Positions 10,487-41,076 of a DNA stretch of 41,098 bases are shown piece after piece; positions within the stretch are counted from its first letter, which is position 1; each line of letters opens with the position of its first letter. The translations under genes and the position numbers were made by a program. The stretch spans positions 1 through 41,098 of IMG/VR virus record IMGVR_UViG_3300033153_013458. One strand, written 5' to 3'. The notes under the pieces were generated by a model. It searched no databases. It saw nothing but the letters and a program-made list of their open reading frames with translations, and was not told the DNA's origin. Source of the DNA: a virus.

Positions 10487-13400
10487 ATGTTCAACTTAAA
10501 AAAATATAGATATGCAGATACTCAAGATGCAAGTTTCGTAGAAAACATATCAAATAAAGGTGATATTCAGAATTTTCCTCCAGATTTAAGAAACGTTGCT
10601 CTTGAAACTCAAGATAATCTTGAAAATGCAGATGTAGAAAAAGAAGAGGTTGAAAAAACATACGAAACGTCTGATTTAAAGGAGCAATTTAACAACTATT
10701 CCAATCTCGCTTATTTAAAAATGTTGCAGGATAAGTACGAAGGTGTTCCTGAATTTCAAGATCTTATAGTTAAACTTCAAGCCAGGGAAATAACAGAAGG
10801 TGATCTAGAAAATTTTAATGAAATCATGCAAAAAGTTTTAAACGGAGAAATCTCGCCAGAAGAACAAATAGCAATTAGTGGCACTGATGTCCAATCCGCA
10901 GCAGCAAGCATGTTTAATAGAGACTTGCCATTAATTCAACAGACAATCTACAAGGAAAGAGAAGCAAGAGAAAATGCACAAGTCGCATCTTCTTCAAAAC
11001 AGGTTAAAAAAGGACAAATTATTCCAGACCAAAATTTAATGAATGAACAAAATAATCAAGTCATGTCGACTGTCCTTCCTGTTGAAGACATTGGCGATTT
11101 TATAAATAAAATGGTTAAAATCATCTTAAGCGGAGATGAAACAAGTTTTAACCAAGCTCAATCTGAAATTGTGTCTAATGTGTCTGCCGATTTGGAGCAG
11201 GAAGCTCAAAGTGCTTTTGGCTCCTTGAAAGAATTTTTAGGAAGAGCAGAGGAAGAAGAAGAAATTGCTTCAATTCTTACTAGAGTCTATGGACTTCTTC
11301 CTTCGACACAAAGCTCTGGTGAAGCAACTTTGCAAGAGGAGCCGATGATGGCTAAGTCATTTAATCTTTCAAAACATTCAGAGAAAGAAGAGGGACTGAC
11401 AAAAGAAGCCTATTTCCATGTCGGTGATAGCTACTTGATGTACGGTCCAACTGAAAAACGAATTTGTCCAAAATTAAGAGGAAGAGGCGGTGGAAAACCA
11501 GGAGGCTCAGATGTCGTGTCTGAAGAAATTTGCCGTTTTCACTGTCTCGATGGGATAATCATAGATGATAATAAAACTATCTGTGGCGAAGCACTTTGGC
11601 GTGCTAATGTGATGGATAAGTTCAGTCGTGAATATGTTGATAAAGAAGGAAAAATTGTTGGTGGGTATTTGAATAAGAGATTTGAAATTGATCGAAATGT
11701 GGCACCAGAAAACAGCGCTCGCCTGAAACCAGGAGAAACTAGAAAACCTAGACCTCCAGAATTAGGCGTCACCGAATCTCGAATGCAAGCAATGCGAAAT
11801 AAAGAAGGAGAAGCAAGAGATTATCGTCCTGCGACCAATACTGGTCAGCCCTTCAATTGGCAAAAAGATGTAGATCAAAACAATGTCAACCAGACTCAAA
11901 AAGAACGAGATCGTAGAGAAGAAGCAATGGGTCATCAGTTGGTTCAATACACAAATAAAGAACAACTGGAAAACCATCCGAAGATGGAAAAACAAGCTCA
12001 AGTTATTCCAGACGATGGTTACGCTGATGGAGGCGAACCATATACTGACGAAGAAATGGATTTAATGGCAAAGCCCATTAAGCCTACTGTTCTCGATAAT
12101 GGCATTCGCATATATAAAATTGGCAATATGTTTTTACCTGGTCTCAATTTTAACCCGAGATATGAAAACCGCTTTGGTCGTATATTGATTGGAGGAGATA
12201 GAGGAGATGTCATTGCAGATAGTGCTTATAATGATGAGAAAAATGGAAAAAGAGGGGTTTTTCTTAGGAATGTAATTTTTAGAACAACTATTGATTTTGA
12301 CGATCTCCTGCCAGAGGAACTTCGTAATGAAGCCGAAAATGTGATACTTTTTGCTTATGAATCCATTCAAGGGGATGCCTTCATTCCTCAAAAAAATGCA
12401 AATAAACCAAAATTAAAAAAACAATTCGCCAAAGAAGCAAAAGGGAAGAAATTCATTCAGGATGCAGTTAAAGACGAAGGATCATTTACAGAATATTGTG
12501 GTGGAAAAGTCACTCAAGAATGCATAGAACGTGGCAAAAAAAGTCCAGACACCAAAACGAAACGTAGAGCCAATTTGGCTGAAACTTTGAGAGGATTGCC
12601 AAGAAAAAAGAAAAAAGCATTTAACCTAAATGAATATAAAAGTGCTGCTAAAGAACCAAAAAAAGCAATAGCTAATTCACCAATTGTCGCTTATCAAAAA
12701 CTCGTTAGTGAAGTGACAACAGCAACTAGCCCTGAACAACTGGATTCAATTAATAAAAGAGCCATTAAAGCTGAATTGCCAGATCTTCTTGGAAGGCAAC
12801 TCAGCGATGCTATTTTAGAAAAATCTAGAGAACTATCAAAAAATGATGATTCTCAGCTGATCGATTCTCCAAAAGACGAAGCCAAACCAATGATGATTTC
12901 CCAGGAAATGGGAACGGCAGTGATAAATCCTTCTGCTACATCTTCTCAAAAAACAAAAAAAGCAAAGTCAAAGTATCCAAAATCTGAAACAACTCCTTAT
13001 AATCCATGGGCAGTTTGTTTTGTTCCTGGAACATTTGTTACAATGAAAGACGGAACATCTGTTCCTATTGAAAAAATAAAAATTGGAGATTATGTTATTT
13101 CACATCGTGGAAATCCACAAAAAGTTACGAAAGTTTTTAGTAGATTTGTTGATGAAAAATTGTTAAAAATACAAGTTAATGGTGTTGCAGACAAAACAAT
13201 TGTCACAAAAGATCATCCATTTTTTGCCATGACTTCTACAAGAAATTTTAAAGGTTATGCGAAAGATCAGAATAAAAACAAAACAGGAAAACGATGGTAT
13301 TCAGATACCTATGAAGACAGTCCCAAATTTATAAAAGCTCGATATTTAAAAAAAGGCGATGCTTTACATTCTCCAAGTATCAATTTTCTAGACAGGGATG

Positions 13401-15163
13401 TATCATTGAATATCAACGAACAAGATGCTTTTGTTATGGGTCTATATTGTGCAGAAGGATGTCTTGATAGAAGGCCAGTAGCGAAAACATGGAAATGCGG
13501 GAACAGACATAATAGAAAGGACACATTTGTTCCTGTGGACAAGAGCTATAGAATCAAATTCGCTTTAAATAATTTTGAAGATAAATTTGCTATTAATTTT
13601 TTGAAGAAATATAGTAATAATAAACTTAATATTTATGGACCATATAGATCTAGTCCCAAAGCAGTTTATATAATTCTTTCATCAAAAAGTTTATATAATT
13701 TATGTGAAAAACATATTGGAAAATATTCTCAAAAGAAAACTTTAAGTAATGCACTCATGAGTATGTCGCCTGCTATTTTGCGATATTTTCTTATTGGTTA
13801 TTTTTTGGGAGATGCCAATATAGAAAGAAGTTCTTTTCAAAAGAAAAATAATAAGTATTCATCGTTTCAATCTTCAGGAAAAATGAAAATATATGCCACA
13901 TCTGCTTCTAGAAATTTAATAAATCAACTATTTTGGATTTGCGAGAAATGTGGCATTGTAGCAACTACAAGAAAACAAAAAGAAAATAGGGGACCATATA
14001 ATAGAGAAAAATCATATTATAATTATGGGGTAGAGCTTGATGCAACCGAATCCTGTAAACTTTTGCCAGAATTTAATAAATTAAAAGTTTTTGGAGATGA
14101 CATTTTGATTACTCCGTCTGGTCGAAAAGCTCAAAGATTTGCTATGGCAGCCTGTACCTATGGAAAAGTTATTTCAGTTAGTGAAACTGATTATTCAGGG
14201 AAGACTTATAATCTTGAGGTAGAAAATGATAACACTTATGTTGCCAATCTTTGTTCCGTTCATAATTGTTCAGAATCAACAGGAAGAGAAGATAAAGAAA
14301 AATACGAAAGCTGTGTGCAGGACGTCAAAAAACAAAACAGAAAAAGTAACAAACAAAAAAAGAGTAAATCAGCAAGCAATAAAACAGCAACTTATGGTTG
14401 GTCTTTCTCTCAAGATTTTTATGAAGAATTAGAAAGAGCATTAGAAAAGAACATTTTATCTGATCCGGTTTTTAAAAAAGGATTAGAAGATTTGCTCGGT
14501 TTCGCTAGAGAAGGAGCCTATGCCGAAGGAGTTCCAGTTGACATTTTAATAGATTCTGCAATGGAACAAGCGGAACAAGTTAATACTGTTACCGATCTAT
14601 CCTCTCCTGTGGAAGTCTGGATTGACGAGGAAGGATATTTAACTGTTGAAGTTCCAGAAAGGGATGACTTCAACTATGAAGGAGAAAATCTTGCCAAATC
14701 TTTTAATCTAAAGAAATTCAAAACCGCTCAAATGACAGGATTAAGAGGACCAGTTGGTCCAGAAAATCCAATATCAGATGATCTTGGACTAAGTCCAGAT
14801 TATTTGCCAGATGAAGACTTTGATAAAGAAGTGCCTCTAAGCGAAGTGGTAGAAGAATATATGGGCGAAGTAGATCGAGCAGAAAATTCAGAACAACTAC
14901 TAAAGGCAATTCTTGATGCTCATAAAAATTGGAAAACAGAAGGATTGTCAATGCGAGATCTAGACCAAATCATGGACGCTGCTTATGATAGAGGAAAAGA
15001 ATTAGGTGTGGATTTGGAACAGGAACTTTATGGTGAATCAGATCGTGTCTTTGAAGACATAGGAATTGAAGGACCTCCTATTACACAAAGAAGCAGAGGA
15101 CCTAGATATTTCGCTAAAAACAAAAAACCAATTAAAGAATCTCAAACTAAAAAAAAAAGTTAA
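10487..15163 (+). CDS. Giant multi-module virion-type protein containing an intein
   Basis: The frame encodes 1558 residues; removing the intein (13016-14266, 417 residues) leaves 1141. The start MFNLKKYRYAD is echoed three more times inside: SFNLSKHSEKEE near 11353, AFNLNEYKSAAKE near 12617 and SFNLKKFKTAQ near 14698. It therefore looks like four units fused head to tail. One unit has CPKLRGRGGGKPGG and CRFHCLDG (possible metal site). After splicing, NPWAV joins CSESTGREDKEKYESC, a motif I associate with tailed-phage virion proteins. The region after the intein (ILSDPVFKKG to IEVW-like VEVWIDEEGYLTVEVPE) is duplicated in the next reading frame. The frame ends at an A10 tract followed by AGT TAA; see the frameshift entry. 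Function is unknown. Confidence 0.8.
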   Translation: MFNLKKYRYADTQDASFVENISNKGDIQNFPPDLRNVALETQDNLENADVEKEEVEKTYETSDLKEQFNNYSNLAYLKMLQDKYEGVPEFQDLIVKLQAREITEGDLENFNEIMQKVLNGEISPEEQIAISGTDVQSAAASMFNRDLPLIQQTIYKEREARENAQVASSSKQVKKGQIIPDQNLMNEQNNQVMSTVLPVEDIGDFINKMVKIILSGDETSFNQAQSEIVSNVSADLEQEAQSAFGSLKEFLGRAEEEEEIASILTRVYGLLPSTQSSGEATLQEEPMMAKSFNLSKHSEKEEGLTKEAYFHVGDSYLMYGPTEKRICPKLRGRGGGKPGGSDVVSEEICRFHCLDGIIIDDNKTICGEALWRANVMDKFSREYVDKEGKIVGGYLNKRFEIDRNVAPENSARLKPGETRKPRPPELGVTESRMQAMRNKEGEARDYRPATNTGQPFNWQKDVDQNNVNQTQKERDRREEAMGHQLVQYTNKEQLENHPKMEKQAQVIPDDGYADGGEPYTDEEMDLMAKPIKPTVLDNGIRIYKIGNMFLPGLNFNPRYENRFGRILIGGDRGDVIADSAYNDEKNGKRGVFLRNVIFRTTIDFDDLLPEELRNEAENVILFAYESIQGDAFIPQKNANKPKLKKQFAKEAKGKKFIQDAVKDEGSFTEYCGGKVTQECIERGKKSPDTKTKRRANLAETLRGLPRKKKKAFNLNEYKSAAKEPKKAIANSPIVAYQKLVSEVTTATSPEQLDSINKRAIKAELPDLLGRQLSDAILEKSRELSKNDDSQLIDSPKDEAKPMMISQEMGTAVINPSATSSQKTKKAKSKYPKSETTPYNPWAVCFVPGTFVTMKDGTSVPIEKIKIGDYVISHRGNPQKVTKVFSRFVDEKLLKIQVNGVADKTIVTKDHPFFAMTSTRNFKGYAKDQNKNKTGKRWYSDTYEDSPKFIKARYLKKGDALHSPSINFLDRDVSLNINEQDAFVMGLYCAEGCLDRRPVAKTWKCGNRHNRKDTFVPVDKSYRIKFALNNFEDKFAINFLKKYSNNKLNIYGPYRSSPKAVYIILSSKSLYNLCEKHIGKYSQKKTLSNALMSMSPAILRYFLIGYFLGDANIERSSFQKKNNKYSSFQSSGKMKIYATSASRNLINQLFWICEKCGIVATTRKQKENRGPYNREKSYYNYGVELDATESCKLLPEFNKLKVFGDDILITPSGRKAQRFAMAACTYGKVISVSETDYSGKTYNLEVENDNTYVANLCSVHNCSESTGREDKEKYESCVQDVKKQNRKSNKQKKSKSASNKTATYGWSFSQDFYEELERALEKNILSDPVFKKGLEDLLGFAREGAYAEGVPVDILIDSAMEQAEQVNTVTDLSSPVEVWIDEEGYLTVEVPERDDFNYEGENLAKSFNLKKFKTAQMTGLRGPVGPENPISDDLGLSPDYLPDEDFDKEVPLSEVVEEYMGEVDRAENSEQLLKAILDAHKNWKTEGLSMRDLDQIMDAAYDRGKELGVDLEQELYGESDRVFEDIGIEGPPITQRSRGPRYFAKNKKPIKESQTKKKS
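13016..14266 (+). mobile_element. Intein with LAGLIDADG endonuclease in the giant virion-type protein
   Basis: This in-frame insertion of 417 residues begins with Cys in CFVPGTFVTMKDG (block A) and has the block B motif TKDHPFF. It carries two LAGLIDADG-like helices (VMGLYCAEG and LIGYFLGDAN) and ends with YNLEVENDNTYVANLCSVHN, followed by Cys as the first C-extein residue. All residues needed for standard Cys-to-Asn/Cys protein splicing are visible. The host sequence rejoins as NPWAV-CSESTG. The acid residues of both LAGLIDADG helices are present, so homing activity is plausible. Confidence 0.92.
15149..15158 (+). other. A10 tract: probable -1 frameshift joining the giant protein to the next frame
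   Basis: The zero frame reads ACT AAA AAA AAA AGT TAA. A -1 slip on the A run (A AAA AAA type) reads AAA AAG TTA ATT CCT and stays open to 15834. The -1 frame from 15151 encodes the missing first half of a repeat that is complete in the giant protein, so the two frames belong to one coding unit. This is either programmed slippage giving two products or a one-base length error in the homopolymer. Confidence 0.6.
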
Positions 15164-15842: not shown

Positions 15843-18800
15843 ATGCCCGATAAAGGAATTATAATTCAACCAGGTGATCCCGAGTTTAATGACCCATCCT
15901 ATAAAGAAGGATGGGGAAATTCCTTGCCGCCAAAAGAAGCAATGCAGAAGAAAATGTCAGAACTCGGAAGCACCTATAATCATGCTTTGCCTACGACTGC
16001 CGTCACTCCGTATTTTCATAAGACGGCACAATCATCCGATATCAATACAATCTTTACGAATCCAATGTGGTTTTCACCACTGCATACCCCACAATCGTGG
16101 CAAATAGCTAGCAGGCGCAGAGAGATTTACCAATGGTCGTTTGTTTCTTCGAAAAAACCGTGTTTTCTAACGAAATATGGCGATTTTTCGCTAGAAAAGA
16201 TTGAAGATATATATACATTAATGAACTCGAAGGTCGTTGAAAACAAGGATTTGTATATACAAAACGCTAAAAGCCAACCTGCAAAAATCGACATTGCTAC
16301 CAAACGTCATGTTAAAAAGAAAGCAAATGAAATTAAAGTGATGGGCATTTCTCTGCCAATCACTGTCACACATGATCACGATTGCATGGTGGTTGAGAAA
16401 AAACAAGTCAAGTGTTCTAAAGGCATTAATAAGTCTAAAAATTGCATTCGAAACATGAATTCTCCAATTTGCCAAGGAATCAAATGCCGAAAATGGGAAA
16501 CTGTGGATTATGAAATTTCTAAAAAGAAAGCAAGAGATGTCAAGAAAGGTGATTATTTTCTTGTTCCATTTTCAAAGGAAGTGAAAGAAAGTGTCATTAA
16601 AACTGAAGCACAGGCCAAGTTTGCTGGACACCTTGCTTCTGATGGTTGTGTGTCTCCAGATCGAGTCGGTGTTAGAATTTTTATGCATTCAGATGAAGTC
16701 GAATATGTTCTTCCTCCAGTGAAAGAAACATTTAATGATTTTGGTTTTTCTCCAGGCGTGAAAACTTCACGGCATTCACAATGTCTCGTCACAGCAAGAA
16801 CTGGAAGCATTGCTATTACTGAATTCGCCAAAAAACTAGTTAAAGGAAAAAGTATAAATAAAAAGTTCACTGAAGAAGTGATGCTGCTTGAACCAGAACT
16901 CCAAAAACATGTTCTCGGAGCTTATATTCAATCTGATGGATCGCTTTCTAAAAGTAGCGACAATGTTGAAATAACAACTATTTCTCCTCATCTTGCGAAT
17001 CAATTGTTGATGATTTGTTTTCGATGTGGTATTTTAGCATTTTGCGGAAGATATAATATTAGTCAATCGTCAAAAACTTTTCCAACCAAAAATAAACATC
17101 GTTATGTCATCACCATTCCATCCTCAGATGTATATTCATTAGCTCCTTATGTTCCTGGAAAATTAGGCATTTTTAATAGAGACGAAGACGAAGAAAACGA
17201 AGAATTTGTATATACATACACTATGTTAGATGGCGATATGGGAAAGGTGAATCAACTCATTCCTCCCAAGAAAAAACGCACTCATAACAAGCGATTCTTC
17301 TGGAAAAACTATGTCATAACTCCAGTAACAGCAAATACTTCCTTTGATTACGAAGGTGATGTCTATGACGTGAGAGCACCAGATGATTTTACAGTCACAG
17401 CGAATGGCGTTGCCATACATCAATGTCGATTCTTCTACCAGTGTTTTACTCCTGAAAATTTAGTGTTGATGGCAAACGGAACTGAAAAAAGAATAGACAA
17501 AATCAAAAGAGGCGATTTAATTATAGCTGGTGATGGAAGTTCACAAGAAGTTAAAAATATCTTTAAGAGATGGACGAAAGAAAAAGCATTAGAGATTGGC
17601 GTTAGCGGAAATACCAGAAAAATAAAATGCACAAATAATCATATCATTCCGAGTATCGACAAGGATACGTGGCGTAAAAGCCATTTAACTACACCTTCTG
17701 AGAGAAGAAAAAAAGAAAGATTAAGAGATAACGATGATGTCGAATTTAGGATTAAGTGGGATTGTGCTGAGAATCTCTCGTTGAATTCTTTTCTTTATAC
17801 TCCTTCTACCAATATCGGCAATGGATATGATGCCTCTCTAGAAAAATGTTATGTTTTTGGTGCTTTCGTTGCTGAAGGAAGCTATTATTGGCATTTGTAT
17901 AAAGGAGAAAAGAAAAGAACTAAAGGAATTAGGTTTTCAATAAATAAAAACGAGGTTTCAGACGATAATTCTGAAAATTTGTTTGGAAATAGAATTATTC
18001 GATTTTTGAAAAAATCTCAACACAACAAAGTATCTCTGTATTCAGCTGGGAAAAATGAAAAAGGAGTAGAAAAAAACAGTTGTGACATTAGTGTTAGCAA
18101 TGTAGATTTTACAGAAGAATTTTATAAATTTTGTGGAAATAATCCAAAAATCATTAATTTTGATTTTATTAATTCTGCTTCAAAAGAACAATTATTATCA
18201 TTCTTGGCAGGTTATATTGACGGAGATGGGTGCTATAATGTTTCAAACGGATGCCAAATTATTACTTTTGATAAGAATTTAGCATCACAAATTTCTTTTA
18301 TTTGTGAAAAATTAAAGTTAACTTATTCTCTATCACAATCAAAATCAAGCGGTTTTAGCGATGGAGAAAATTACGATGCTAATAACGTTGATCGATTTTG
18401 TATCAGAATTTCTCGATTTGCTTGTGAATCTTTAAAAAAATATTCTTGTAAAATTACAAATCTTGATGTTCATAATACTAAATATGGAAATTATTTATTT
18501 GTTGATGACAAAATATACAGAAAGATAAATTCTATTTCCGAATTCACTTATGAGGGATATGTATACGATCTCGAAATAGATAACGTGCATTCTTATTGCG
18601 TAAATAGAATGGCAGTTCATAACAGCGAACCCAAGGTTGCTGCAGGCATCGATTTTTATAGTCAATTTCCAGTTAACGGGTTCAAATTGGTTTGGCCACA
18701 TAGTACGGGAGAAAGAAAACTTCTTAAATTTTTTGAACGAGAAACCAAACGCCTCGATCTTGTTAACATTCTGAGACAAATTTCTAGTGAATATTACATG

Positions 18801-21800
18801 TTAGGTGATGTTTTTCCTCATGCTGACATTTCTTGTCCGACTTGCAAAGGCAATCCTTATAATCCAATGACTGGAGAAATGTGCAATCATGCAGGCGGGA
18901 ACATCAGTCGCATTAAAATTTTGAATCCTGATTGGATCGAAGTGACGGACACCATTTTTGCTGACGAAGAGCAAATTGTGTTGATTCCAGATGAGCAAAT
19001 TGTGAGAATCGTTTCTACTAAACAGCCAAGACAAATTTATGATCGATTGTCGCCTCAAATCAGGCAACTCGTAATGGCACAAAAACCGATTTTGTTGTCG
19101 AATCGAGTAGTGAGTCATTTGAAGCACATGCCTGCCCCGTATGGAATATACGGCACCTCTCTCATTCGTCGTCTTTTCACAACTCTTGCTTACAAAACGA
19201 AAATCATGACGGCGAATTGGATTGTTGCTGAAAGGCTGATCATTCCAGTTCGGATCGTCAAAATCGGAAGTGACAATCGTCCTGCGACTTCGGCAGACAT
19301 CGCAGAATTCAATCAAATGTTGGCGGCAACAACGAATGATCCTAATTTAACTCTCGTCACACATCACAATCTAGACTATGATTGGATCGGTGCTTGTCAC
19401 GATGAAGAAACCGAGGTTCTAACTTCTTCTGGTTTCAAGAAATATGGATCTTTCGATTCTGATGAAGAAATTCTCACTTATAATGTATATACAAAACGTC
19501 TGGAATATCAGAAGCCACAGGCGTTTCATGAGTTTGATTATGATGGAGATTTGGTTCATTTCGAAGGAAAGCAAATTGATATTAAAGTCACGCCCAATCA
19601 CAGAATGCTTGTTCAAAAACGAAGATCTGATGATTGGCATGTCAAATTTGCAGATGAAGTCAGGTCAGGAGATCATCTTCTTGCTCATGCTCAATATGAC
19701 GGCGAAAAATTCAATCCTGTAGTAAACATTCATGATCAATTAGTGGACTTGAAAGATTTTCTATCTTTTGTTGGTTATTATTTGTCTGAGGGATCAATCA
19801 AATTCAACAAAAAACGCAGGGAATACATTGTTACGATTGATCAGAGTCCGAAAATCAATCCAAAAATTTGCGAATGCATAGAAAAAACTCTCTCTTCTCT
19901 TCCTTATAAATATTCTGTCTTGAAGAACGATGACAAAAATCGGTATCGAATTTTCAAGAAATCGTTGTGTGTGTTCTTGGAAGAGAATTTTGGTCGTTAT
20001 TCCAGAAATAAGAAAATTCCAAATTGGATTAAAAATCTTCCTTCCGATTATTTAAGAGTTTTGATTAATTCATTGATGAACGGAGATGGTTATAGCATTA
20101 AAAACATTCACACTCGCAACAAAATCTATACTACTATCTCTAAAACATTAGCAGATGATGTACAAGAAATTGCCTTTAAGTCTGGTTATAATGTTCGTAT
20201 TCTTAAAGAGAAAACTAAAAACGTCAATATAGTCTATCGTGTTCGTTTTAGTGAAGGAAAATGGAGCAAAGGCAACGAACCTCGACTCAAAAAGCATCAC
20301 ATTTCTCGCGTTCCTTACAAAGGCAAAGTTTGGTGTTTCACTGTGCCGAATGGATTTTTTGTCACTCGACGCAATGGCAAGATCGCGATTCAAGGCAATT
20401 CAGGCAAGATTCTTCAACTCGGTCAAGAAATGGAGCATATTGACAAAGAGATGTTGGATGGTTTGATGTTAAATCAAGCATTGCTCAATGGCGAGATGTG
20501 TTTGACGGGCGATCATGAAGTCTTGACTGATTCTGGTTATAAAATGATTGATTGTGTTGAATTCAAGGATCAATTGTGTGTTTGGGATGATGACAATCGA
20601 ACCTATCGATTTGAGAATCCCAGAGACATTTTTAAATATGAAGATGTTGATGACATTTTCGAAATTCATTGTGGTAGAAAGATTCTTTTCAAATGCACTG
20701 GTGCTCATAAAATTGTCATTCGACCAGAAAAAGATCATCAAAAACATGATACCATTACTGCCAAGGAATTATTTAATAACGAATCTCAACATGTATACAC
20801 ATTGATGAGGGATGGCAATTATTGCGAGATTACCAATGTAGTCAAGAAGCCGCATAAGAATGCTGTTTATTGCTTTAAAACGAGTACTGGTTATTTTATG
20901 GCTCGTTATAGAGATTTTGAATTTATAAGTAGCAATTCTGGATACCAATGTCATGATGTTGATCAAACAGAAGTCTTGACACAAAGTGGATTCAAAAAAT
21001 ATGACGATATTACCGAGGATGATTTAATTGGAACTTTTAACGAAAAAACAGAGGAACTTGAGTATCAGCCTTATTCTAATCGTTATGATTATTCTTATGA
21101 TGGAAGAATGATTCATTTTAAATCAAAACGTATGGACTGTTTGGTTACTCCAAACCATAGGATGTTAATTAGAAACAGAAATAGTCGAAATAAAGATAAA
21201 TGGGAAATCTCTTTTGCAAAAGACGTAACGCCAAGTCACCAATTTAGGACTGTTGTTAATAAATGGCAAGGAAGAAATAATTTTCCAAAAACAATTAGAA
21301 TTGACAATGAATACGAATTGGATCTTGAAGATTATATCAAATTAGTTTGTTATTTTGCTGCTGAGGGATCTATTCGTCGTGAGACAAGAAAAGAAAGATC
21401 TACTTTTGGAGAACCAGCTACTACAACAATTTGCCAGTCTGAAAAGGGGAAAGCATTTATTGGTATCAAAAAACTTTCTGATTCGATTTCATATCGTGTA
21501 CGACACTATGCAAAATATGATCAATTTTGTATACATAACAAAAAGCTGACTACCCATTTGATTAGTGCGTGTGGTTCTCGTAGCGAGAATAAACGCATTC
21601 CTTCTTGGATTAAAGAATTGCCGACCAGATATTTGCATTTAGCTATTAATTGTCTTATCGAAGGAGATGGTTATTTAGAGCATTCTGTTAAAAACGGTTA
21701 TCAATATGGATTTGAAGTTAAAAGCAAGCAATTAGCTGAAGACTTGTATGAAATAGCATTTAAATGCGGTTATTCGCCACTCATGGCAAAACGCAAAAGA

Positions 21801-23078
21801 CGAGATCTTTGGGCAGTGGATTTTTCTGATGCTCCTAGCGGTCGCTATCCATATTTAACAAGCAAATATATTGAAGAAGAAAACTATAAAGGTAGAATTT
21901 TTTGCTTTACAGTTCCAAATGGTTTATTTATAACAAGAAGGAATGGTAAAATTTCCATTCATGGGAATAGCGCTCAAGTTGGTGTAGAAGTTTTGATTCG
22001 TCGTCTTGAGGCTTGGCGCACTACATTGGCTGAATGGGTTGAGGAGCGAATTTTCAAGCCAATCGCTCAAATGAAGGGATTAATTGACAAGGAAGCCAGT
22101 GAGGAGTCAGGAGAAAACATTTGGCTTTATCCCATTTTAAAATGGAATGATCTTAATCTGAAGGACAAGACACAATGGTATCAACTTCTCATGCAGCTTC
22201 ATGATAAACAAGTTATTTCAACTCAAACTCTTTGTGATGAGCTTGATTTAAATTACGATCAAGAAGTTGAGCGTTTGCGTTATGAAATGGCACAGGCAGG
22301 TCCAATGGGGGCTCAACTCGGTGGAATGGGTGAAATGGGTGGCGGAATGCTTGGCGGCGGTCTTGGTGGCGGTGGCATCAGTGCTCCAGGCGGTGGTGCT
22401 GCAGCTCCACCGCCTCCAGGTGGAATTCCTGGAATGCCTGGAGGCGAAATGGGCGGTGGAATGCCTGCGCCAGGTGGAGCCCCTGGTGGTGCAGCAAGTC
22501 CTATTGCCGCTGGTCAACCGATGAAAGTTTTAAAACGCAGCAAAGCAAAAGCGATTCAGGAGAAGCAAGAACCGATGCAGTTTGGTCAGGTGAAATTCAC
22601 TGGAATTGAGCAGGAATTTCGCAAGATGTTAGACAATGTTGTTAGTACAATGAAGATTAGTTCTCCTTATTATTTTCAATATAAAGTAGAAAAGACTGCG
22701 GGTGGACAACCTTATTCCATTGATTTTGCTTTTCCAAAACTTCGGCTTGGCGTTGAATTAGATGGCAGTGTCTGGCATAGCAATCCAAAGCAAGTACAAC
22801 ATGATCGGCAAAGGGATAACGAACTAGCAATGAAGGGGTGGACGGTTCTCAGGTTTGATGACAAAACAATGGAAAGTCAGCCAAATGCAGTTCAAAACGT
22901 TGTTGTCAGTTATTTACAAAAAGCCATGTCGAGAGGAAGAGTCAAGAGATCCAAGGTGGACTCTGGAGACGGTGACACTAACTACATCACTGTTTATGCT
23001 GATCGTTTAATCAACGTTTACAAAGACGAGTTGCCTGAAGGATTAATCAAATTGGCATTAGGAGAAGAGGAATGTTAA
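15843..23078 (+). CDS. Portal protein interrupted by five inteins, with C-terminal DUF559/Vsr-like nuclease domain
   Basis: The frame has 2411 residues. Five inteins occupy 1644, leaving about 767. The rejoined host reads ...RRREIYQW-CRFFYQ-SEPKVAAGIDFY..., ...DWIGA-SGKILQLG..., ...NGEM-SGYQ-SAQVGVEVL..., which reads as a continuous portal: the N-terminal YQWCRFFY/AAGIDFY region, a Cys/His knuckle (CPTC and CNHAGG), KTKIMTANWIVAERL, and the helical stem and crown. Portals form the dodecameric DNA channel at one capsid vertex. A Gly/Met/Pro-rich linker (about 22290-22520) leads to YSIDFAFP, LGVELDGSVWH and GWTVLRFDDKTM, the pattern of a DUF559/Vsr-type PD-(D/E)XK fold. AGGTGA lies before the ATG. 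It overlaps the next gene by 7 bases. Portal identity is fairly sure; the role of the nuclease-like tail is unknown. Confidence 0.88.
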   Translation: MPDKGIIIQPGDPEFNDPSYKEGWGNSLPPKEAMQKKMSELGSTYNHALPTTAVTPYFHKTAQSSDINTIFTNPMWFSPLHTPQSWQIASRRREIYQWSFVSSKKPCFLTKYGDFSLEKIEDIYTLMNSKVVENKDLYIQNAKSQPAKIDIATKRHVKKKANEIKVMGISLPITVTHDHDCMVVEKKQVKCSKGINKSKNCIRNMNSPICQGIKCRKWETVDYEISKKKARDVKKGDYFLVPFSKEVKESVIKTEAQAKFAGHLASDGCVSPDRVGVRIFMHSDEVEYVLPPVKETFNDFGFSPGVKTSRHSQCLVTARTGSIAITEFAKKLVKGKSINKKFTEEVMLLEPELQKHVLGAYIQSDGSLSKSSDNVEITTISPHLANQLLMICFRCGILAFCGRYNISQSSKTFPTKNKHRYVITIPSSDVYSLAPYVPGKLGIFNRDEDEENEEFVYTYTMLDGDMGKVNQLIPPKKKRTHNKRFFWKNYVITPVTANTSFDYEGDVYDVRAPDDFTVTANGVAIHQCRFFYQCFTPENLVLMANGTEKRIDKIKRGDLIIAGDGSSQEVKNIFKRWTKEKALEIGVSGNTRKIKCTNNHIIPSIDKDTWRKSHLTTPSERRKKERLRDNDDVEFRIKWDCAENLSLNSFLYTPSTNIGNGYDASLEKCYVFGAFVAEGSYYWHLYKGEKKRTKGIRFSINKNEVSDDNSENLFGNRIIRFLKKSQHNKVSLYSAGKNEKGVEKNSCDISVSNVDFTEEFYKFCGNNPKIINFDFINSASKEQLLSFLAGYIDGDGCYNVSNGCQIITFDKNLASQISFICEKLKLTYSLSQSKSSGFSDGENYDANNVDRFCIRISRFACESLKKYSCKITNLDVHNTKYGNYLFVDDKIYRKINSISEFTYEGYVYDLEIDNVHSYCVNRMAVHNSEPKVAAGIDFYSQFPVNGFKLVWPHSTGERKLLKFFERETKRLDLVNILRQISSEYYMLGDVFPHADISCPTCKGNPYNPMTGEMCNHAGGNISRIKILNPDWIEVTDTIFADEEQIVLIPDEQIVRIVSTKQPRQIYDRLSPQIRQLVMAQKPILLSNRVVSHLKHMPAPYGIYGTSLIRRLFTTLAYKTKIMTANWIVAERLIIPVRIVKIGSDNRPATSADIAEFNQMLAATTNDPNLTLVTHHNLDYDWIGACHDEETEVLTSSGFKKYGSFDSDEEILTYNVYTKRLEYQKPQAFHEFDYDGDLVHFEGKQIDIKVTPNHRMLVQKRRSDDWHVKFADEVRSGDHLLAHAQYDGEKFNPVVNIHDQLVDLKDFLSFVGYYLSEGSIKFNKKRREYIVTIDQSPKINPKICECIEKTLSSLPYKYSVLKNDDKNRYRIFKKSLCVFLEENFGRYSRNKKIPNWIKNLPSDYLRVLINSLMNGDGYSIKNIHTRNKIYTTISKTLADDVQEIAFKSGYNVRILKEKTKNVNIVYRVRFSEGKWSKGNEPRLKKHHISRVPYKGKVWCFTVPNGFFVTRRNGKIAIQGNSGKILQLGQEMEHIDKEMLDGLMLNQALLNGEMCLTGDHEVLTDSGYKMIDCVEFKDQLCVWDDDNRTYRFENPRDIFKYEDVDDIFEIHCGRKILFKCTGAHKIVIRPEKDHQKHDTITAKELFNNESQHVYTLMRDGNYCEITNVVKKPHKNAVYCFKTSTGYFMARYRDFEFISSNSGYQCHDVDQTEVLTQSGFKKYDDITEDDLIGTFNEKTEELEYQPYSNRYDYSYDGRMIHFKSKRMDCLVTPNHRMLIRNRNSRNKDKWEISFAKDVTPSHQFRTVVNKWQGRNNFPKTIRIDNEYELDLEDYIKLVCYFAAEGSIRRETRKERSTFGEPATTTICQSEKGKAFIGIKKLSDSISYRVRHYAKYDQFCIHNKKLTTHLISACGSRSENKRIPSWIKELPTRYLHLAINCLIEGDGYLEHSVKNGYQYGFEVKSKQLAEDLYEIAFKCGYSPLMAKRKRRDLWAVDFSDAPSGRYPYLTSKYIEEENYKGRIFCFTVPNGLFITRRNGKISIHGNSAQVGVEVLIRRLEAWRTTLAEWVEERIFKPIAQMKGLIDKEASEESGENIWLYPILKWNDLNLKDKTQWYQLLMQLHDKQVISTQTLCDELDLNYDQEVERLRYEMAQAGPMGAQLGGMGEMGGGMLGGGLGGGGISAPGGGAAAPPPPGGIPGMPGGEMGGGMPAPGGAPGGAASPIAAGQPMKVLKRSKAKAIQEKQEPMQFGQVKFTGIEQEFRKMLDNVVSTMKISSPYYFQYKVEKTAGGQPYSIDFAFPKLRLGVELDGSVWHSNPKQVQHDRQRDNELAMKGWTVLRFDDKTMESQPNAVQNVVVSYLQKAMSRGRVKRSKVDSGDGDTNYITVYADRLINVYKDELPEGLIKLALGEEEC
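16137..17423 (+). mobile_element. Portal intein 1 (LAGLIDADG; Ser1, C-terminal Gln)
   Basis: 429 residues from SFVSSKKPCFLTKYG to NGVAIHQ, with Cys as the next extein residue. Block A is LTKYGDFSLEKIEDI and block B is TVTHDHD. The LAGLIDADG-like helices are FAGHLASDGCV and VLGAYIQSDGS, and block F is GDVYDVRAPDDFTVTANG. The boundary is set by restoring the portal motif YQW-CRFFYQ. This makes residue 1 Ser instead of Cys and the last residue Gln instead of Asn, both non-standard. An alternative start at the Cys of PCFLT would leave eight extra residues in the portal and give a block A that is too short. Confidence 0.85.
17442..18623 (+). mobile_element. Portal intein 2 (LAGLIDADG; Cys1, HN, +1 Ser)
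   Basis: 394 residues from CFTPENLVLMANG to VNRMAVHN, followed by Ser of SEPKVAAG. Block B is CTNNHIIPS. The LAGLIDADG helices are VFGAFVAEGSY and FLAGYIDGDGC, the second nearly consensus. Block F is YEGYVYDLEIDNVHSYCVN. It starts only 18 bases (residues CRFFYQ) after intein 1 ends. Splicing residues and both endonuclease acids appear intact. Confidence 0.92.
19395..20399 (+). mobile_element. Portal intein 3 (LAGLIDADG; ends GN, +1 Ser)
   Basis: 335 residues from CHDEETEVLTSSGFKKYG to RRNGKIAIQGN, followed by SGKILQLG. Block B is VTPNHRMLVQKR. The endonuclease motifs are FVGYYLSEGSI and LINSLMNGDGY, and block F is YKGKVWCFTVPNGFFVTRR. The penultimate residue is Gly rather than the usual His. 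It is clearly related to intein 5, which shares both ends. Confidence 0.92.
20499..20936 (+). mobile_element. Portal intein 4 (mini-intein without endonuclease)
   Basis: 146 residues from CLTGDHEVLTDSGYKMI to YRDFEFISSN, followed by SGYQ. Block B is CTGAHKIVIRP and block F is NAVYCFKTSTGYFMARY. There is no LAGLIDADG helix between them, only about 60 residues, so it is a natural mini-intein that can splice but not home by itself. The penultimate residue is Ser instead of His. Confidence 0.88.
20949..21968 (+). mobile_element. Portal intein 5 (LAGLIDADG; paralogue of intein 3)
   Basis: 340 residues from CHDVDQTEVLTQSGFKKYDD to RRNGKISIHGN, followed by SAQVGVEVL. Block B is VTPNHRMLIRNR. The endonuclease motifs are LVCYFAAEGSI and AINCLIEGDGY, and block F is YKGRIFCFTVPNGLFITRR. 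It begins just 12 bases (residues SGYQ) after intein 4 ends. Both ends match intein 3 closely, pointing to a common ancestor. Confidence 0.92.
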
Positions 23079-28972: not shown

Positions 28973-30109
28973 ATGAAGAGAGAGAAGTGGAATAGAGAAA
29001 AAATAATAAGTAGAATTTCACATCTTCAAAAAAATAACATTCCATTAAATTCAGGTTTCATACAAAACCGTTATCGTGCATTATATCTGGCTTCATGTAG
29101 GCATTTTGGAAGCTGGACAGAAGCACTTGCAGCTATTGGAGTTGATTCGTGTAAAGTTCTTGTAAGAAAAAAATGGAATAAACAAAAAACTATCGATGAA
29201 ATTCTTGAAAGAAAAAAAGCAAATAAACCGTTAAATTCTAATGTTATTCAAAATAATGACAAGAAATTAATGGCAGCAGCACTCAAATATTTTGGTGATT
29301 GGAATTCCGCAATTAAAGCCAGTGGGTTAGATATTGATGAAATTCGAAAACCCAATAAAAATTGGGCAATTGGCGATATGAAAGAATTGGCTGAAAGGAA
29401 AGGAGGAAAGTGTTTATCTGAAAAATACATCAATGCAAAAACTTATATGAAGTGGCAATGTGCAGATGGACATGTTTGGACAGCTAAACATAACTGCATC
29501 AGACGTAGTTGGTGTCCATATTGCTCAAGGTATTTATCAGAAGAGAAATGTCGTTTTATTTTTGAAGAATTAACAGGAGAAAAATTCCAACGAACTAGAA
29601 AAATTTTAGGGAAAGGATTTGAGCTAGATGGATATTGCAAAGATCTAAAAACTGCTTTTGAATATCAAGGACAACAACATTATTATTTTGTTAAGTATTT
29701 TCATAAAACAAGAGAGAAACTTGACAAAATAAAAGAAAGAGACAAATATAAAATAAAGAGATGCAAAGAATTAAAAGTGTCTTTAATAGTCATTCCTTAT
29801 ACTGTTTTTGACAATTCTAACGAAGTTAATTTTATATTTCGAAATCTCCAATTACTTAATGTTAAAACAATATGTAATGTTGAAGATTTTTCTTATGATG
29901 GATTTATTAATTCTAAACTTTTATCAATTAAGAAAATTGTTAAAGAAAAAGGTGGAAAATTAATTTCCAATTTTTATGCAGGAAGTAGTCATCCAATAAT
30001 AATTGAATGTAAAAGAGGACATATGCATAGCACGACATGGGACATATTAAAGCAGGGTCACTGGTGTGCCAAATGTGGCTATTTAGATAGATACAAGAAA
30101 GCATCTTAA
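28973..30109 (+). CDS. Free-standing homing endonuclease-like protein (HNH-associated repeats, zinc ribbons, PD-(D/E)XK-type core)
   Basis: The 378-residue protein starts with two copies of a helical repeat: W...I...I......N.PLNS..IQN...L..A....FG.W..A....G. This is the type known as the homing-endonuclease-associated repeat. A zinc ribbon follows (CADGHVW with CPYCSRY), then FELDGYCKDLKTAFEYQGQQHYYF and RDKYKIKRCKELKVSLIVIPY, which fit a PD-(D/E)XK/Vsr-like core with Asp, Glu and Gln/His. The C-terminus has a second ribbon (CKRGHMH and CAKCG). Such enzymes cut specific DNA to spread their own gene. It has its own -10 element and a terminator and sits between protease and head genes, so it looks like an inserted cassette. 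Confidence 0.8.
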   Translation: MKREKWNREKIISRISHLQKNNIPLNSGFIQNRYRALYLASCRHFGSWTEALAAIGVDSCKVLVRKKWNKQKTIDEILERKKANKPLNSNVIQNNDKKLMAAALKYFGDWNSAIKASGLDIDEIRKPNKNWAIGDMKELAERKGGKCLSEKYINAKTYMKWQCADGHVWTAKHNCIRRSWCPYCSRYLSEEKCRFIFEELTGEKFQRTRKILGKGFELDGYCKDLKTAFEYQGQQHYYFVKYFHKTREKLDKIKERDKYKIKRCKELKVSLIVIPYTVFDNSNEVNFIFRNLQLLNVKTICNVEDFSYDGFINSKLLSIKKIVKEKGGKLISNFYAGSSHPIIIECKRGHMHSTTWDILKQGHWCAKCGYLDRYKKAS

Positions 30110-37062: not shown

Positions 37063-38162
37063 TGACCTAAAAAGCTTGTCCACCTAGAGTTGTGAAACTC
37101 TATAAAAAAATCGTGCTCATAACGGAGAACCCTAAGTTGTATAAAAAAATGAAAATTGAAACAAAAGAGAATAAAACGCATATACAATATGGTAACTCCG
37201 TGGGAAGTTTAAGGAAAATTCTAATAGGATTGCAATGAGTAAGAAAACGCGAATAATAAAAGAAGAATTAACAAAACTCTATGTAGAACAGGATAAAACT
37301 ACTTATGAAATTGCTTCTATTTATAGTTGTGATAGAAGAACAATTTCGCGTTATCTTAAGCAATATGGAATAACCATAAAAAGACACAAACGAGCCTATT
37401 CGTTTTATTATGAACAAAAATTAAATGACATTCAAAAAGATTTAATTCTAGGGAGTTTGATAGGTGATGGATGCATTTCCAAACATCACGATGGAGTTAA
37501 TTCTTGCAGATTTTTAGAACAACATTCCATAAGACAATTGGAATACCTGAAATGGAAAAAAGAGATATTAAACAATTTCGTTTCCTCTGATATTAAAATA
37601 ATTGATAACTCAAAAAACAATAGTTATGGAAACGAATTAAGTTGTAATTTTATCACTGTTCTTCATAAAGAATTTGTAAAATTTTATGAAATGTTTTACA
37701 AAAACAAAGTGAAGAGGATCCCTTATTTTCAATTGTCACCTATTAGTTTAGCGGTATGGTATTTTGATGATGGAAGCATAAGCAAATTGGGGCAAAAGGG
37801 CAATTACTATAGTGCTAGATTTCATACAGAATCTTATGATGACGAAAGTATAGCTAATTTACAAAAAATGCTTAAAGATATGGATATTTCGTCTAACACT
37901 ATTAATGTGAAAAAGAAATATAAAATTATCTCTCTTCCACATATAGAAACTAACAAATTGATGAATATTATTGCTCAATATGCAAACTCAATACCATGCA
38001 TGGCTTATAAAATAAAGTTTTCCGATAACCCCGTAGAGACTCAGGCTTTTATGTCTGGAGTGCCAATTCTGAAATGTTTTGGTGCTAACACGCACGACTC
38101 TCTGTTTTCATTCAGAGATGATGGTATAGTCCGTGGCTCCCGAAAGGGATGACCATTTCTCG
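37063..38162 (+). ncRNA. Group I intron in the major capsid protein gene
   Basis: The intron is 1100 bases. P1: exon GGTGGAT (37056-37062) pairs with GTCCACC (37078-37084), with the required U-G wobble at the 5' splice site. P10: AGCTT (37073-37077) pairs with the first exon bases GAGCT (38163-38167). P2: AGAGTT/AACTCT (37086-37101) with a GTGA tetraloop. CGGAG (37123-37127) pairs with CTCCG (37196-37200). P7: CACGACT (38093-38099) with AGTCCGTG (38128-38135) and a bulged C. P8: CTCTG/CAGAG (38100-38117). ATGGTATAGTCC matches the conserved P7 3' segment. The last base is G (38162). It is self-splicing by family knowledge and carries a LAGLIDADG gene in its middle. Confidence 0.9.
37235..38152 (+). 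CDS. LAGLIDADG homing endonuclease encoded in the group I intron
   Basis: The protein has 305 residues. Residues about 10-50 form a helix-turn-helix (TTYEIASIYSCDRRTISRYL). The two LAGLIDADG helices are LILGSLIGDGC (acid Asp78) and SLAVWYFDDGS (Asp178/179), so a single chain can form the full active site. Such enzymes cut the intronless allele at the insertion site and spread the intron; some also help splicing. The gene runs into the intron's 3' core and stops at TGA 38150-38152, ten bases before the 3' splice site, so core RNA and coding sequence overlap. AAGGAAAA lies upstream of the ATG. Confidence 0.9.
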   Translation: MSKKTRIIKEELTKLYVEQDKTTYEIASIYSCDRRTISRYLKQYGITIKRHKRAYSFYYEQKLNDIQKDLILGSLIGDGCISKHHDGVNSCRFLEQHSIRQLEYLKWKKEILNNFVSSDIKIIDNSKNNSYGNELSCNFITVLHKEFVKFYEMFYKNKVKRIPYFQLSPISLAVWYFDDGSISKLGQKGNYYSARFHTESYDDESIANLQKMLKDMDISSNTINVKKKYKIISLPHIETNKLMNIIAQYANSIPCMAYKIKFSDNPVETQAFMSGVPILKCFGANTHDSLFSFRDDGIVRGSRKG

Positions 38163-39281: not shown

Positions 39282-39863
39282 ATGAAAAAATTAAGAGAAT
39301 ATGCGAATCAACATAATGTCACCTATCGAACCGCTTACAATCACTTCAAAGCTGGACTCATTGAGAATGCCTATCAATTGCCAACAGGAACAATTGTAAT
39401 TCCAGATTCTTACCAGCCACCAGTCCAGGATTATGTCGTCACTTATGCAAGAGTTTCATCATCAGAGAACAAAAGCAATCTTGAAAAACAATCAAAACGA
39501 ATTCGAGATTTTTGTGCTGCTAAAGGTTGGATCATTCGAGAAGGCATTGAAGAAGTTGGTTCTGGAATTAACGAAAATCGCAAGAAATTGGACAAGATTC
39601 TCACTGAAAGAAAAGCCACTAAAATCGTAGTCGAGCATAAAGACCGCCTCACGAGATTTGGCTTCAGTTACATCGAAAAATTATGTGATAGATTCGGATG
39701 TGAAATCGTCGTCATCAACCAAGTTGAGAATGGAAAAGAAGATCTTCTTCAAGATTTCATTTCAATCATCACTAGCTTCTGTGCCAAGATTTATGGACTT
39801 CGAAGAAGCAAGAGGAAAACAGAGAAAATTATTCGAGAATTGCAAAATGAAAAAAGAGTCTAA
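39282..39863 (+). CDS. tnpA: IS607-family serine recombinase (transposase)
   Basis: The 193-residue protein opens with a MerR-like helix-turn-helix (LREYANQHNVTYRTAYNHF) and has the small serine-recombinase core YARVSSSENKSNLEKQ with candidate nucleophile Ser59 or Ser60. EEVGSGINENRKKL, VVEHKDRLTRFGF and FISIITSFCAKIYGLRRSKRK follow. This domain order, DNA-binding at the N-terminus and catalysis after it, is the IS607 hallmark. It forms a Ser-DNA link and moves the element by site-specific recombination with little target preference. It overlaps tnpB by 17 bases and appears intact. Confidence 0.93.
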   Translation: MKKLREYANQHNVTYRTAYNHFKAGLIENAYQLPTGTIVIPDSYQPPVQDYVVTYARVSSSENKSNLEKQSKRIRDFCAAKGWIIREGIEEVGSGINENRKKLDKILTERKATKIVVEHKDRLTRFGFSYIEKLCDRFGCEIVVINQVENGKEDLLQDFISIITSFCAKIYGLRRSKRKTEKIIRELQNEKRV

Positions 39864-41076
39864 CACTTTCTTTAAATCATCGACATGCTCCCTCAGATTT
39901 TCTAATTCAGGAAAAATTGACAGTCTCGATCTTTTTATTTCCGAATTCAGAAAAGTCTGTCAGATTTTCATTGACAAGTTCTGGAATGTCGAGAAAATTC
40001 CAAATCTAGTTCCAAGAGAATTCACTTCCAACATCGACACCTGGCTTTCGGCAAGAGCCATTCAAGCAGCCGCAAAACAGGCTTCTGGCATCGTCAGAGG
40101 CACAAGAAAAAAACAGGGACAACGACGATTCAAGCATCAAGAACTTTTCTCGAAGGGAATGTTCAAAAAAGCAAGAATTCTTCAGAAAATCATCGAAAAA
40201 AACGAATGTTCAAAACCAGATATTCAATCTCTCCAGCCTAATCTGGACTCAAGATTTATCACGATTGATCTTGACAATGAAACATCTTTTGACGGCTGGA
40301 TTGTTCTTTCAAGTCTTGGAAATTCTCTCAAGATCGAGATTCCTTTTCAGAGGACAAGACATTTCAATTGGATGGAAAGTCGTGGTTCGAGAAAATCTGG
40401 ACTTCAATTGTCTTCCTCAAAAGCGACTTTCACATTCGAGATTGAGAAACCTCCACAGAAGGAAAAAGGTTCTACGATTGGTCTTGACATTGGAATGAAA
40501 TCAATTTTCACGGCTTCAGATGGTCAAGTCAGTCATCAGGATCGTCATGGTTGGAATCTTGAGAGCATTCAGAGAAAGCTATCAAGACGCAAGAAAGGTT
40601 CAGTTGGATTTCGCAAGGCTCAGGATCACCGAAAGAATCATATCAACTGGTCGATCAACCAGTTGAATTTCAAGAATGTCAAGATTTTAAGAATTGAGAG
40701 GATGAAGCATTTGAGACAGGGCAGGAGATCTTCTCGTCTCATGACTCATTGGACTTACAAGAGCATCTTTGAGAAGTTGACAGACGTTTGCTTAGAATCT
40801 GGTGTCCAGATTCAACAAGTGTCTCCGACTTTCACGAGTCAGAGATGTTCTAAGTGTGGATGGGTTCGTAAGAGGAATCGAAAGAAAAAGCAATTCAAGT
40901 GTGACGAATGTGGATTTGCCACCGACTCGGATTTGAATGCTTCTCTGAACATTTCTCTTGAGCTTCCTGCGATTTGCAAGAAGCAACGATTGTCTCGACC
41001 CAATTTAACTGGTTTTTATTGGGAAGAGACGACTCAGGAGCCTATAGTCCCTGAGGCTCGGAAAGCGGTTTCATAA
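39847..41076 (+). CDS. tnpB: TnpB RNA-guided nuclease (IS607-associated)
   Basis: ATG 39847 is chosen because it overlaps the tnpA end and gives a 409-residue protein of normal TnpB size; the frame is open upstream but that part lies inside tnpA. RuvC residues are present: Asp214 in GLDIGMKS, Glu284 in LRIERMKHL and Asp362 in TDSDLNAS. A four-Cys zinc finger (CSKCGWV and CDECG) lies between the second and third. The N-terminal part is the REC/wedge region with SARAIQAAAKQASGIVRG. TnpB cuts DNA at sites chosen by an omega-RNA from the element's 3' end, helping it persist. It is ancestral to Cas12. All key residues look intact. Confidence 0.92.
   Translation: MKKESNTFFKSSTCSLRFSNSGKIDSLDLFISEFRKVCQIFIDKFWNVEKIPNLVPREFTSNIDTWLSARAIQAAAKQASGIVRGTRKKQGQRRFKHQELFSKGMFKKARILQKIIEKNECSKPDIQSLQPNLDSRFITIDLDNETSFDGWIVLSSLGNSLKIEIPFQRTRHFNWMESRGSRKSGLQLSSSKATFTFEIEKPPQKEKGSTIGLDIGMKSIFTASDGQVSHQDRHGWNLESIQRKLSRRKKGSVGFRKAQDHRKNHINWSINQLNFKNVKILRIERMKHLRQGRRSSRLMTHWTYKSIFEKLTDVCLESGVQIQQVSPTFTSQRCSKCGWVRKRNRKKKQFKCDECGFATDSDLNASLNISLELPAICKKQRLSRPNLTGFYWEETTQEPIVPEARKAVS
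41033..41055 (+). ncRNA. Hairpin in the tnpB 3' end, probable part of the omega-RNA
   Basis: CTCAGG (41033-41038) pairs with CCTGAG (41050-41055), and GAGCC (41038-41042) can alternatively pair with GGCTC (41055-41059), allowing a pseudoknot-like switch. The omega-RNA of TnpB elements usually overlaps the gene's 3' end and runs past it; the window ends 22 bases after the stop, so the guide portion is outside. Confidence 0.4.

Follow-up and report, generated by a model that had tools for sequence, protein, structure and literature searches.

Introduction

How does a phage portal gene come to have 2411 codons, when related portals free of inserts are complete with 752-794 residues? The question is raised by an uninterrupted reading frame at 15843-23078 on the plus strand of the window, by which we mean the whole 41,098-nucleotide stretch of viral DNA analysed here (positions 1 to 41,098 of IMG/VR record IMGVR_UViG_3300033153_013458). 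An earlier note, made from the letters of this DNA, had proposed that the frame is a single portal gene carrying five inteins. We conclude, with a probability of roughly 0.94, that it is indeed a phage portal gene with five inteins at the junctions given below. We further compare the five inserts with their counterparts in related portals and discuss how they may splice, spread and shift between neighbouring sites.

Materials and methods

Relatives were collected by scanning IMG/VR with the portal and removing duplicates, which gave 76 distinct portal reading frames (here given L numbers), some of them cut by contig ends. Inteins were mapped by dynamic programming with a long-insert state, and ambiguous boundaries were checked by hand, including those around the micro-exteins SGYQ in the window and CRFYQ in L098. 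Position numbers denote the residue of the spliced window portal after which an insert sits.

A portal gene with five inserts

The gene and its parts, all on the plus strand, are as follows.

15843-23078, plus strand: portal protein precursor of 2411 amino acids with five in-frame inteins (PHROGs family phrog_16240, portal, 8.2e-23; resembles the phage G portal after removal of the inserts)
15843-16136, plus strand: extein 1, amino acids 1-98, ending in REIYQW (aligns with intein-free portals; GC 43.5%)
16137-17423, plus strand: intein 1, position 98, 429 amino acids, residues 99-527 (same insert in other portals 42-51% identical)
17424-17441, plus strand: extein 2, the six residues CRFFYQ (equal in length and gapless in intein-free portals)
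17442-18623, plus strand: intein 2, position 104, 394 amino acids, residues 534-927 (Intein_splicing 3.3e-13; position also filled in L009)
18624-19394, plus strand: extein 3, from SEPKV to DWIGA (relatives 50-76% identical)
19395-20399, plus strand: intein 3, position 361, 335 amino acids, residues 1185-1519 (Intein_splicing 1.1e-8; position filled in 24 of the 76 distinct portals)
20400-20498, plus strand: extein 4, from SGKIL to NGEM (gapless against intein-free portals)
20499-20936, plus strand: intein 4, position 394, mini-intein of 146 amino acids without endonuclease, residues 1553-1698 (L009 insert at the same position 43% identical; linked by profile comparison to the 354-398 inteins)
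20937-20948, plus strand: extein 5, the four residues SGYQ (counterpart SGYS, AGYN or AAYS in intein-free portals)
20949-21968, plus strand: intein 5, position 398, 340 amino acids, residues 1703-2042 (L015 intein at the same position 63% identical)
21969-23078, plus strand: extein 6, the C-terminal part of the portal with a Gly/Pro-rich linker and a Vsr-like nuclease domain (DUF559 and MTES_1575 matches)

The inserts sum to 1644 residues and their removal leaves a product of 767, exactly the figures that had been proposed beforehand, and each of the five junction pairs occurs once in the 2411-residue protein. PHROGs portal families match the whole frame, and the spliced product resembles known portals over most of its length, being 33% identical to the portal of Bacillus phage G (3e-78). 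A scan of 84,980 prokaryote genomes with the window portal found no relative, and an Rfam scan of the whole window gave no match and no sign of known self-splicing introns. In an AlphaFold2 model of the intein-free relative L016, the portal region was of low quality (mean pLDDT 56) and the nuclease domain better.

The junctions are delimited by portals that lack the inserts altogether, namely those of L010, L016, L018 and L019 (752-794 residues) and of phage G. Aligned to L010, L016, L019 and phage G, the spliced window portal runs gap-free for 12 residues to the left and right of each of the five junctions, so that the smooth portal sequence expected after removal of the inserts was recovered against four intein-free portals. 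The earlier note had named misalignment of homologues across the junctions, or a correspondence of the inserts to normal portal domains, as evidence against it; instead, the intein-free portals align and the inserts are absent from them. Base composition also sets the two apart, with 30-36% GC in the inserts versus 40-45% in the exteins.

The inserts as inteins

Scanned as a whole, the frame matches the Pfam families Intein_splicing (1e-29), LAGLIDADG_3 (8.5e-21) and Hint (5.8e-12), and NCBIfam intein_Nterm as well. Taken singly, inteins 1 to 3 match Intein_splicing with 1.4e-5, 3.3e-13 and 1.1e-8, intein 3 lying just below and intein 1 well below the curated cut-off. Inteins 4 and 5 match Pfam weakly and under that cut-off when scanned singly, and they are assigned because their relatives match, through the family profiles and the L009 insert. 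The family of inteins 3 and 5 finds solved inteins in the PDB (PI-PkoII, 1.1e-14; AceL NrdHF intein, 2.7e-11), and intein 4 matches this family by hhalign profile comparison (96%, 2e-9), while the family of intein 2 matches many solved inteins. Intein 1 is the most divergent of the five; its family hits the TliVMA intein in the endonuclease region, and it aligns with the intein 2 family over almost its full length. Its AlphaFold2 model, of moderate quality (mean pLDDT 66), retrieves the TliVMA (5e-17) and PI-SceI (2e-14) inteins as best Foldseek hits, and the first 16 structural matches are all full-length inteins. The Hint fold is indicated by this model for intein 1, by profiles for the families of inteins 2, 3 and 5, and by profile comparison only for intein 4.

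The block A start, TxxH-type block B, block F and junction residue that had been claimed for each insert can all be found. As in class 1 inteins, residue 1 is a Cys or Ser: Ser in intein 1 and Cys in inteins 2 to 5. Block B reads VTHDH, CTNNH, VTPNH, CTGAH and VTPNH, with Thr-x-x-His in all five (THDH, TNNH, TPNH, TGAH, TPNH), and F:4 is Asp in inteins 1 and 2 and Cys in inteins 3, 4 and 5. The inserts end in IHQ, VHN, QGN, SSN and HGN, followed by Cys at +1 after intein 1 and by Ser after the others (Q/C, then N/S four times). LAGLIDADG motifs with their acidic residues are present in inteins 1, 2, 3 and 5: two with Asp in intein 1 (Pfam LAGLIDADG_3, 2.7e-6), and one with Glu and one with Asp in inteins 2, 3 and 5, where the second motifs of intein 3 (NGDG) and intein 5 (EGDG) were read from the sequence and the first found by pattern. 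In inteins 1 and 2, a pattern search found both motifs. Intein 4 has no such motifs.

A penultimate His is found in inteins 1 and 2; inteins 3, 4 and 5 have Gly, Ser and Gly instead. This residue is usual and not strictly defining, as about 5% of functional inteins differ (PMC4031507), and both a Gln end and a missing penultimate His slow splicing in some inteins (PMC4031507). Atypical ends of this kind, Gln in intein 1 and, in inteins 3 to 5, a Gly or Ser next to the final Asn, together with the loss of the endonuclease from intein 4, could mean that some of the five inserts have decayed and no longer splice, which would make the gene a pseudogene or the portal a broken one. We consider such decay very unlikely. 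The frame is open throughout, and the block B Thr and His, residue 1, the last residue and the +1 residue are intact in all five inserts. Moreover, the same odd ends recur in whole clades: 12 of the 29 fully covered inteins at position 98, intein 1 of the window among them, start with Ser or Cys and finish with Gln, and all 24 of 24 inteins at position 361 end in GN. Related inteins are also under purifying selection, with dN/dS of about 0.07-0.22 in those pairs for which dS could be estimated, dS being saturated in several pairs.

Occupied and empty sites in related portals

The 76 distinct portals contain 114 inteins at 14 positions (98, 103, 104, 116, 177, 354, 356, 361, 392, 394, 395, 397, 398 and 661), of which 21 are mini-inteins of 139-174 residues. 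Nineteen portals have none, 22 have one, 22 have two, six have three, five have four and two have five, and among complete frames this distribution is close to the expectation under independent occupancy. Each position used in the window is also filled in one or more further contigs, and there are contigs in which it is empty; related inteins occur at 98 and 361 in many portals, at 104 in L009, at 394 in L009 and others, and at 398 in L015/L060. The closest relative, L009 (78% extein identity), has inteins 2 and 4 in common with the window, its position-104 intein being 55% identical to intein 2 over the 328 residues present in L009. No complete portal other than that of the window has two inteins within the 392-398 cluster. 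A count of five is, by comparison, not unique to it, and we rejected that idea: L098 (IMGVR_UViG_3300009529_000013) is a second five-intein portal, with inteins of 406, 150, 154, 363 and 159 residues at positions 98, 103, 116, 361 and 398 and the five-residue extein CRFYQ between the first two.

These relatives also bear on the possibility that the assembly has fused portal variants of several phages, the window being a metagenomic contig that may be incomplete. Such a fusion would not preserve one frame with precise junctions at all five inserts. Different combinations of four or five inteins occur on separate contigs, among them L098, L115, L030 and L107, and the closest relative has inteins 2 and 4 as well. 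We therefore regard an artefact as highly improbable and take the five-intein gene to be genuine.

The residue that follows the insertion site differs between occupied and empty sites. Where a portal carries an insert, Cys, Ser or Thr stands at +1 without exception, as would be expected if the inserts must splice; where the site is empty, this residue is frequently an Ala, Asn, Glu, Gly or Val. At position 98, a +1 residue other than Cys, Ser or Thr is found in 0 of 29 occupied versus 23 of 44 empty sites. This constraint would be hard to explain unless the inserts splice, and it would fit a residue that was either present before or gained after invasion.

Intein families and movement between positions

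In a tree of 49 inteins the grouping follows position, with 12 label changes compared with a minimum of 10 and 31.9 in shuffles; positions 116, 398 and 661 each form one clade. The inteins of positions 354-398 belong to one larger family, with Cys at F:4 and GN or SN ends. Within it, intein 3 of the window (position 361) groups with the L013 intein at 394, and the position-354 intein groups with the 361 inteins, which suggests that these inteins have moved between nearby positions, some of the branches having moderate support (90/77).

A scan with the 354-398 family returned 368 loci. Flanks were examined for 53 loci among the best 80; the flanks match portal exteins in 50 cases and different PHROGs portal families in the remaining three, so in every case checked the predicted inteins sit in portal genes. 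Inteins of this family were also seen in portals of several other families (L138-L214), and two further positions occur there, YDKLRE^SKYAQAD and WRxxFE^SAQYDKDF.

A clade resembling class 2 inteins at position 98

In addition to the Gln-ended inteins, position 98 carries a sister clade of intein 1 of the window. It comprises 16 of the 29 fully covered inteins there (L028, L029, L040/L115, L052, L054, L055, L056, L095, L097, L100, L110, L117 and others), which end in Ser-Asn, have Asp at F:4 and start with L, Q, T, S, D, E, K, M or V. Block B is Ser/Thr-x-x-His, the Ser/Thr missing in one, and the +1 residue is Cys in 15 of 16; the L097 intein has Ser at +1.

In class 2 inteins, Cys+1 attacks the N-terminal junction directly, and the known members, which in 2014 were all KlbA orthologues, begin with Ala1 (PMC4031507). 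The Mja KlbA intein resembles the Ser-Asn clade in the Ser before the last Asn, the Asp at F:4, Cys+1 and the lack of a conserved Cys1 or Ser1 (PMC4031507), and differs from it in beginning with Ala1 rather than L, Q, T, S, D, E, K, M or V. A comparison of the clade with the KlbA structure gave no sequence match. Except for Ala1, the clade thus fits the class 2 signature, and its members are candidates for a non-KlbA class 2 lineage; if they splice, they would broaden the known splicing mechanisms. For intein 1 of the window, class 2 was rejected on account of its Ser1 and HQ end. Class 3, which lacks an N-terminal nucleophile and has a W-C-T motif, was rejected for all five inteins of the window portal, each having Cys1 or Ser1.

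Taken together, these patterns may be read jointly. Portal genes would be a general intein hotspot with diversification within the gene; the 354-398 family (F:4 Cys, GN before Ser) would be mainly portal-borne and have moved by one to a few residues, so that copies coexist; and position 98 would harbour a second, non-KlbA lineage that splices without an N-terminal nucleophile. We give this combined picture an even chance of being right as a whole.

Proposed splicing and homing

Most likely, the five inserts of the portal are removed by ordinary protein splicing, so that a single precursor would splice five times, and four of the five would be capable of homing; no sign of a regulatory role was seen. 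The gene would be translated into one long portal precursor, inside which the inteins fold separately; each would then excise itself and ligate the flanking exteins to yield the 767-residue portal. The putative LAGLIDADG endonucleases of inteins 1, 2, 3 and 5 would cut portal genes with an empty site, and repair would copy the insert in, whereas intein 4 has lost its endonuclease. The computations show that the inserts are inteins, where their junctions lie, that the sites are filled in some portals and empty in others, and that related inteins are under purifying selection; splicing, its order and the endonuclease activity are what we infer. The five inteins occupy five of at least 14 positions used in this portal family. 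They have probably accumulated independently by homing into a gene that every related phage must carry and whose sequence is strongly conserved where they insert.

Splicing would have to join exteins of six and four residues that lie between neighbouring inteins; we found no precedent in the literature for splicing around a four-residue extein between two inteins. As a variant of this account, inteins 4 and 5 could sometimes leave as one unit, or one could act only after the other, giving two portal forms or delayed maturation, and the same could apply to inteins 1 and 2 around CRFFYQ. Inteins 4 and 5 belong to the same family, have all the needed residues and are four amino acids apart, and L098 and L113 have exteins of five residues flanked by two inteins. 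The length of the SGYQ stretch is, however, constant in the intein-free portals compared, so a portal without SGYQ is probably not functional. We hold this variant to be unlikely and favour five separate excisions.

The nuclease domain and the surrounding contig

The end of the portal and its upstream region contain two further features.

22677-22910, plus strand: C-terminal Vsr-like nuclease domain of the portal, amino acids 2279-2356 (DUF559 5.5e-10, MTES_1575 6.2e-10)
13016-14266: sixth intein of the window, amino acids 844-1260 of the product of frame 10487-15163, the second frame upstream of the portal gene (matches to Intein_splicing, LAGLIDADG and Hint in Pfam)

The nuclease domain is conserved in the relatives compared and was not seen in the phage G portal. 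Its nearest solved relative is the homing endonuclease I-Bth0305I, whose catalytic domain the relatives' domains resemble in sequence (5e-7), with an agreeing fold. The position-661 intein, occupied in L030, L034/L070, L040/L115, L011/L059, L072, L097 and L120, sits in the conserved nuclease motif E-x-DGxxWH (GVE^CDGDVWH).

The sixth intein begins with C, ends with HN before a +1 C and has 30% GC versus 36-37% around it. Genes for HNH-type and LAGLIDADG homing endonucleases and a transposase were also noted at 28973-30109, 37235-38152 and 39658-41076; the contig is rich in mobile elements. It may be part of a jumbo phage, because contigs with portal relatives (L016, L018, L092 and others) reach 548 kb, and among isolates the nearest portal is that of phage G (498 kb).

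Significance and comparison with known systems

Inteins, portal inteins and multi-intein genes are already known. As far as can be told, what is new is how many positions a single gene offers, the micro-exteins, an intein family associated with portals, and the class-2-like clade; the portal gene looks like a major, apparently undescribed intein hotspot. The earlier note had been aware of no described portal with five inteins; in the literature covered, with subscription journals mostly outside the search, we likewise found no report of a portal, or of any single gene, with five. Given this partial coverage, we claim no record. The count is shared by L098, and portal inteins as such have been described (PMC5050341).

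Five inteins in an essential virion gene, one pair of them four residues apart, test the limits of protein splicing and the independence of neighbouring inteins. With 14 positions in 76 portals and empty, mini and full versions, these genes form a natural experiment on the choice of sites by inteins and on how sites are shifted and lost. The portal commonly serves as a marker gene for phages, and portal genes of this kind are easily misannotated or overlooked in metagenomes.

The closest known case is the portal (PORT) intein of cluster C1 mycobacteriophages such as JayJay, gp96 (PMC5050341). It interrupts a homologous portal gene at exactly position 98 (W^CRxFY), the site of intein 1; the portal gene examined has this one intein, of 268 amino acids, and it is weakly similar to the other inteins of our set (33% over 83 amino acids). 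A ribonucleotide reductase gene of Trichodesmium, according to a 2003 title cited in PMC4649490, has four inteins compared with five in the window, and is a cellular metabolic gene. Among crAss-like phages, the Zeta and Delta groups have genomes heavy in introns and inteins, with at most three inteins per genome reported, in other genes, two of them in one TerL (PMC7886860). The haloarchaeal mcm gene resembles the portals in offering several close positions that are occupied in varied combinations, but it is a cellular replication gene with four positions (PMC10643990), compared with the 14 found here.
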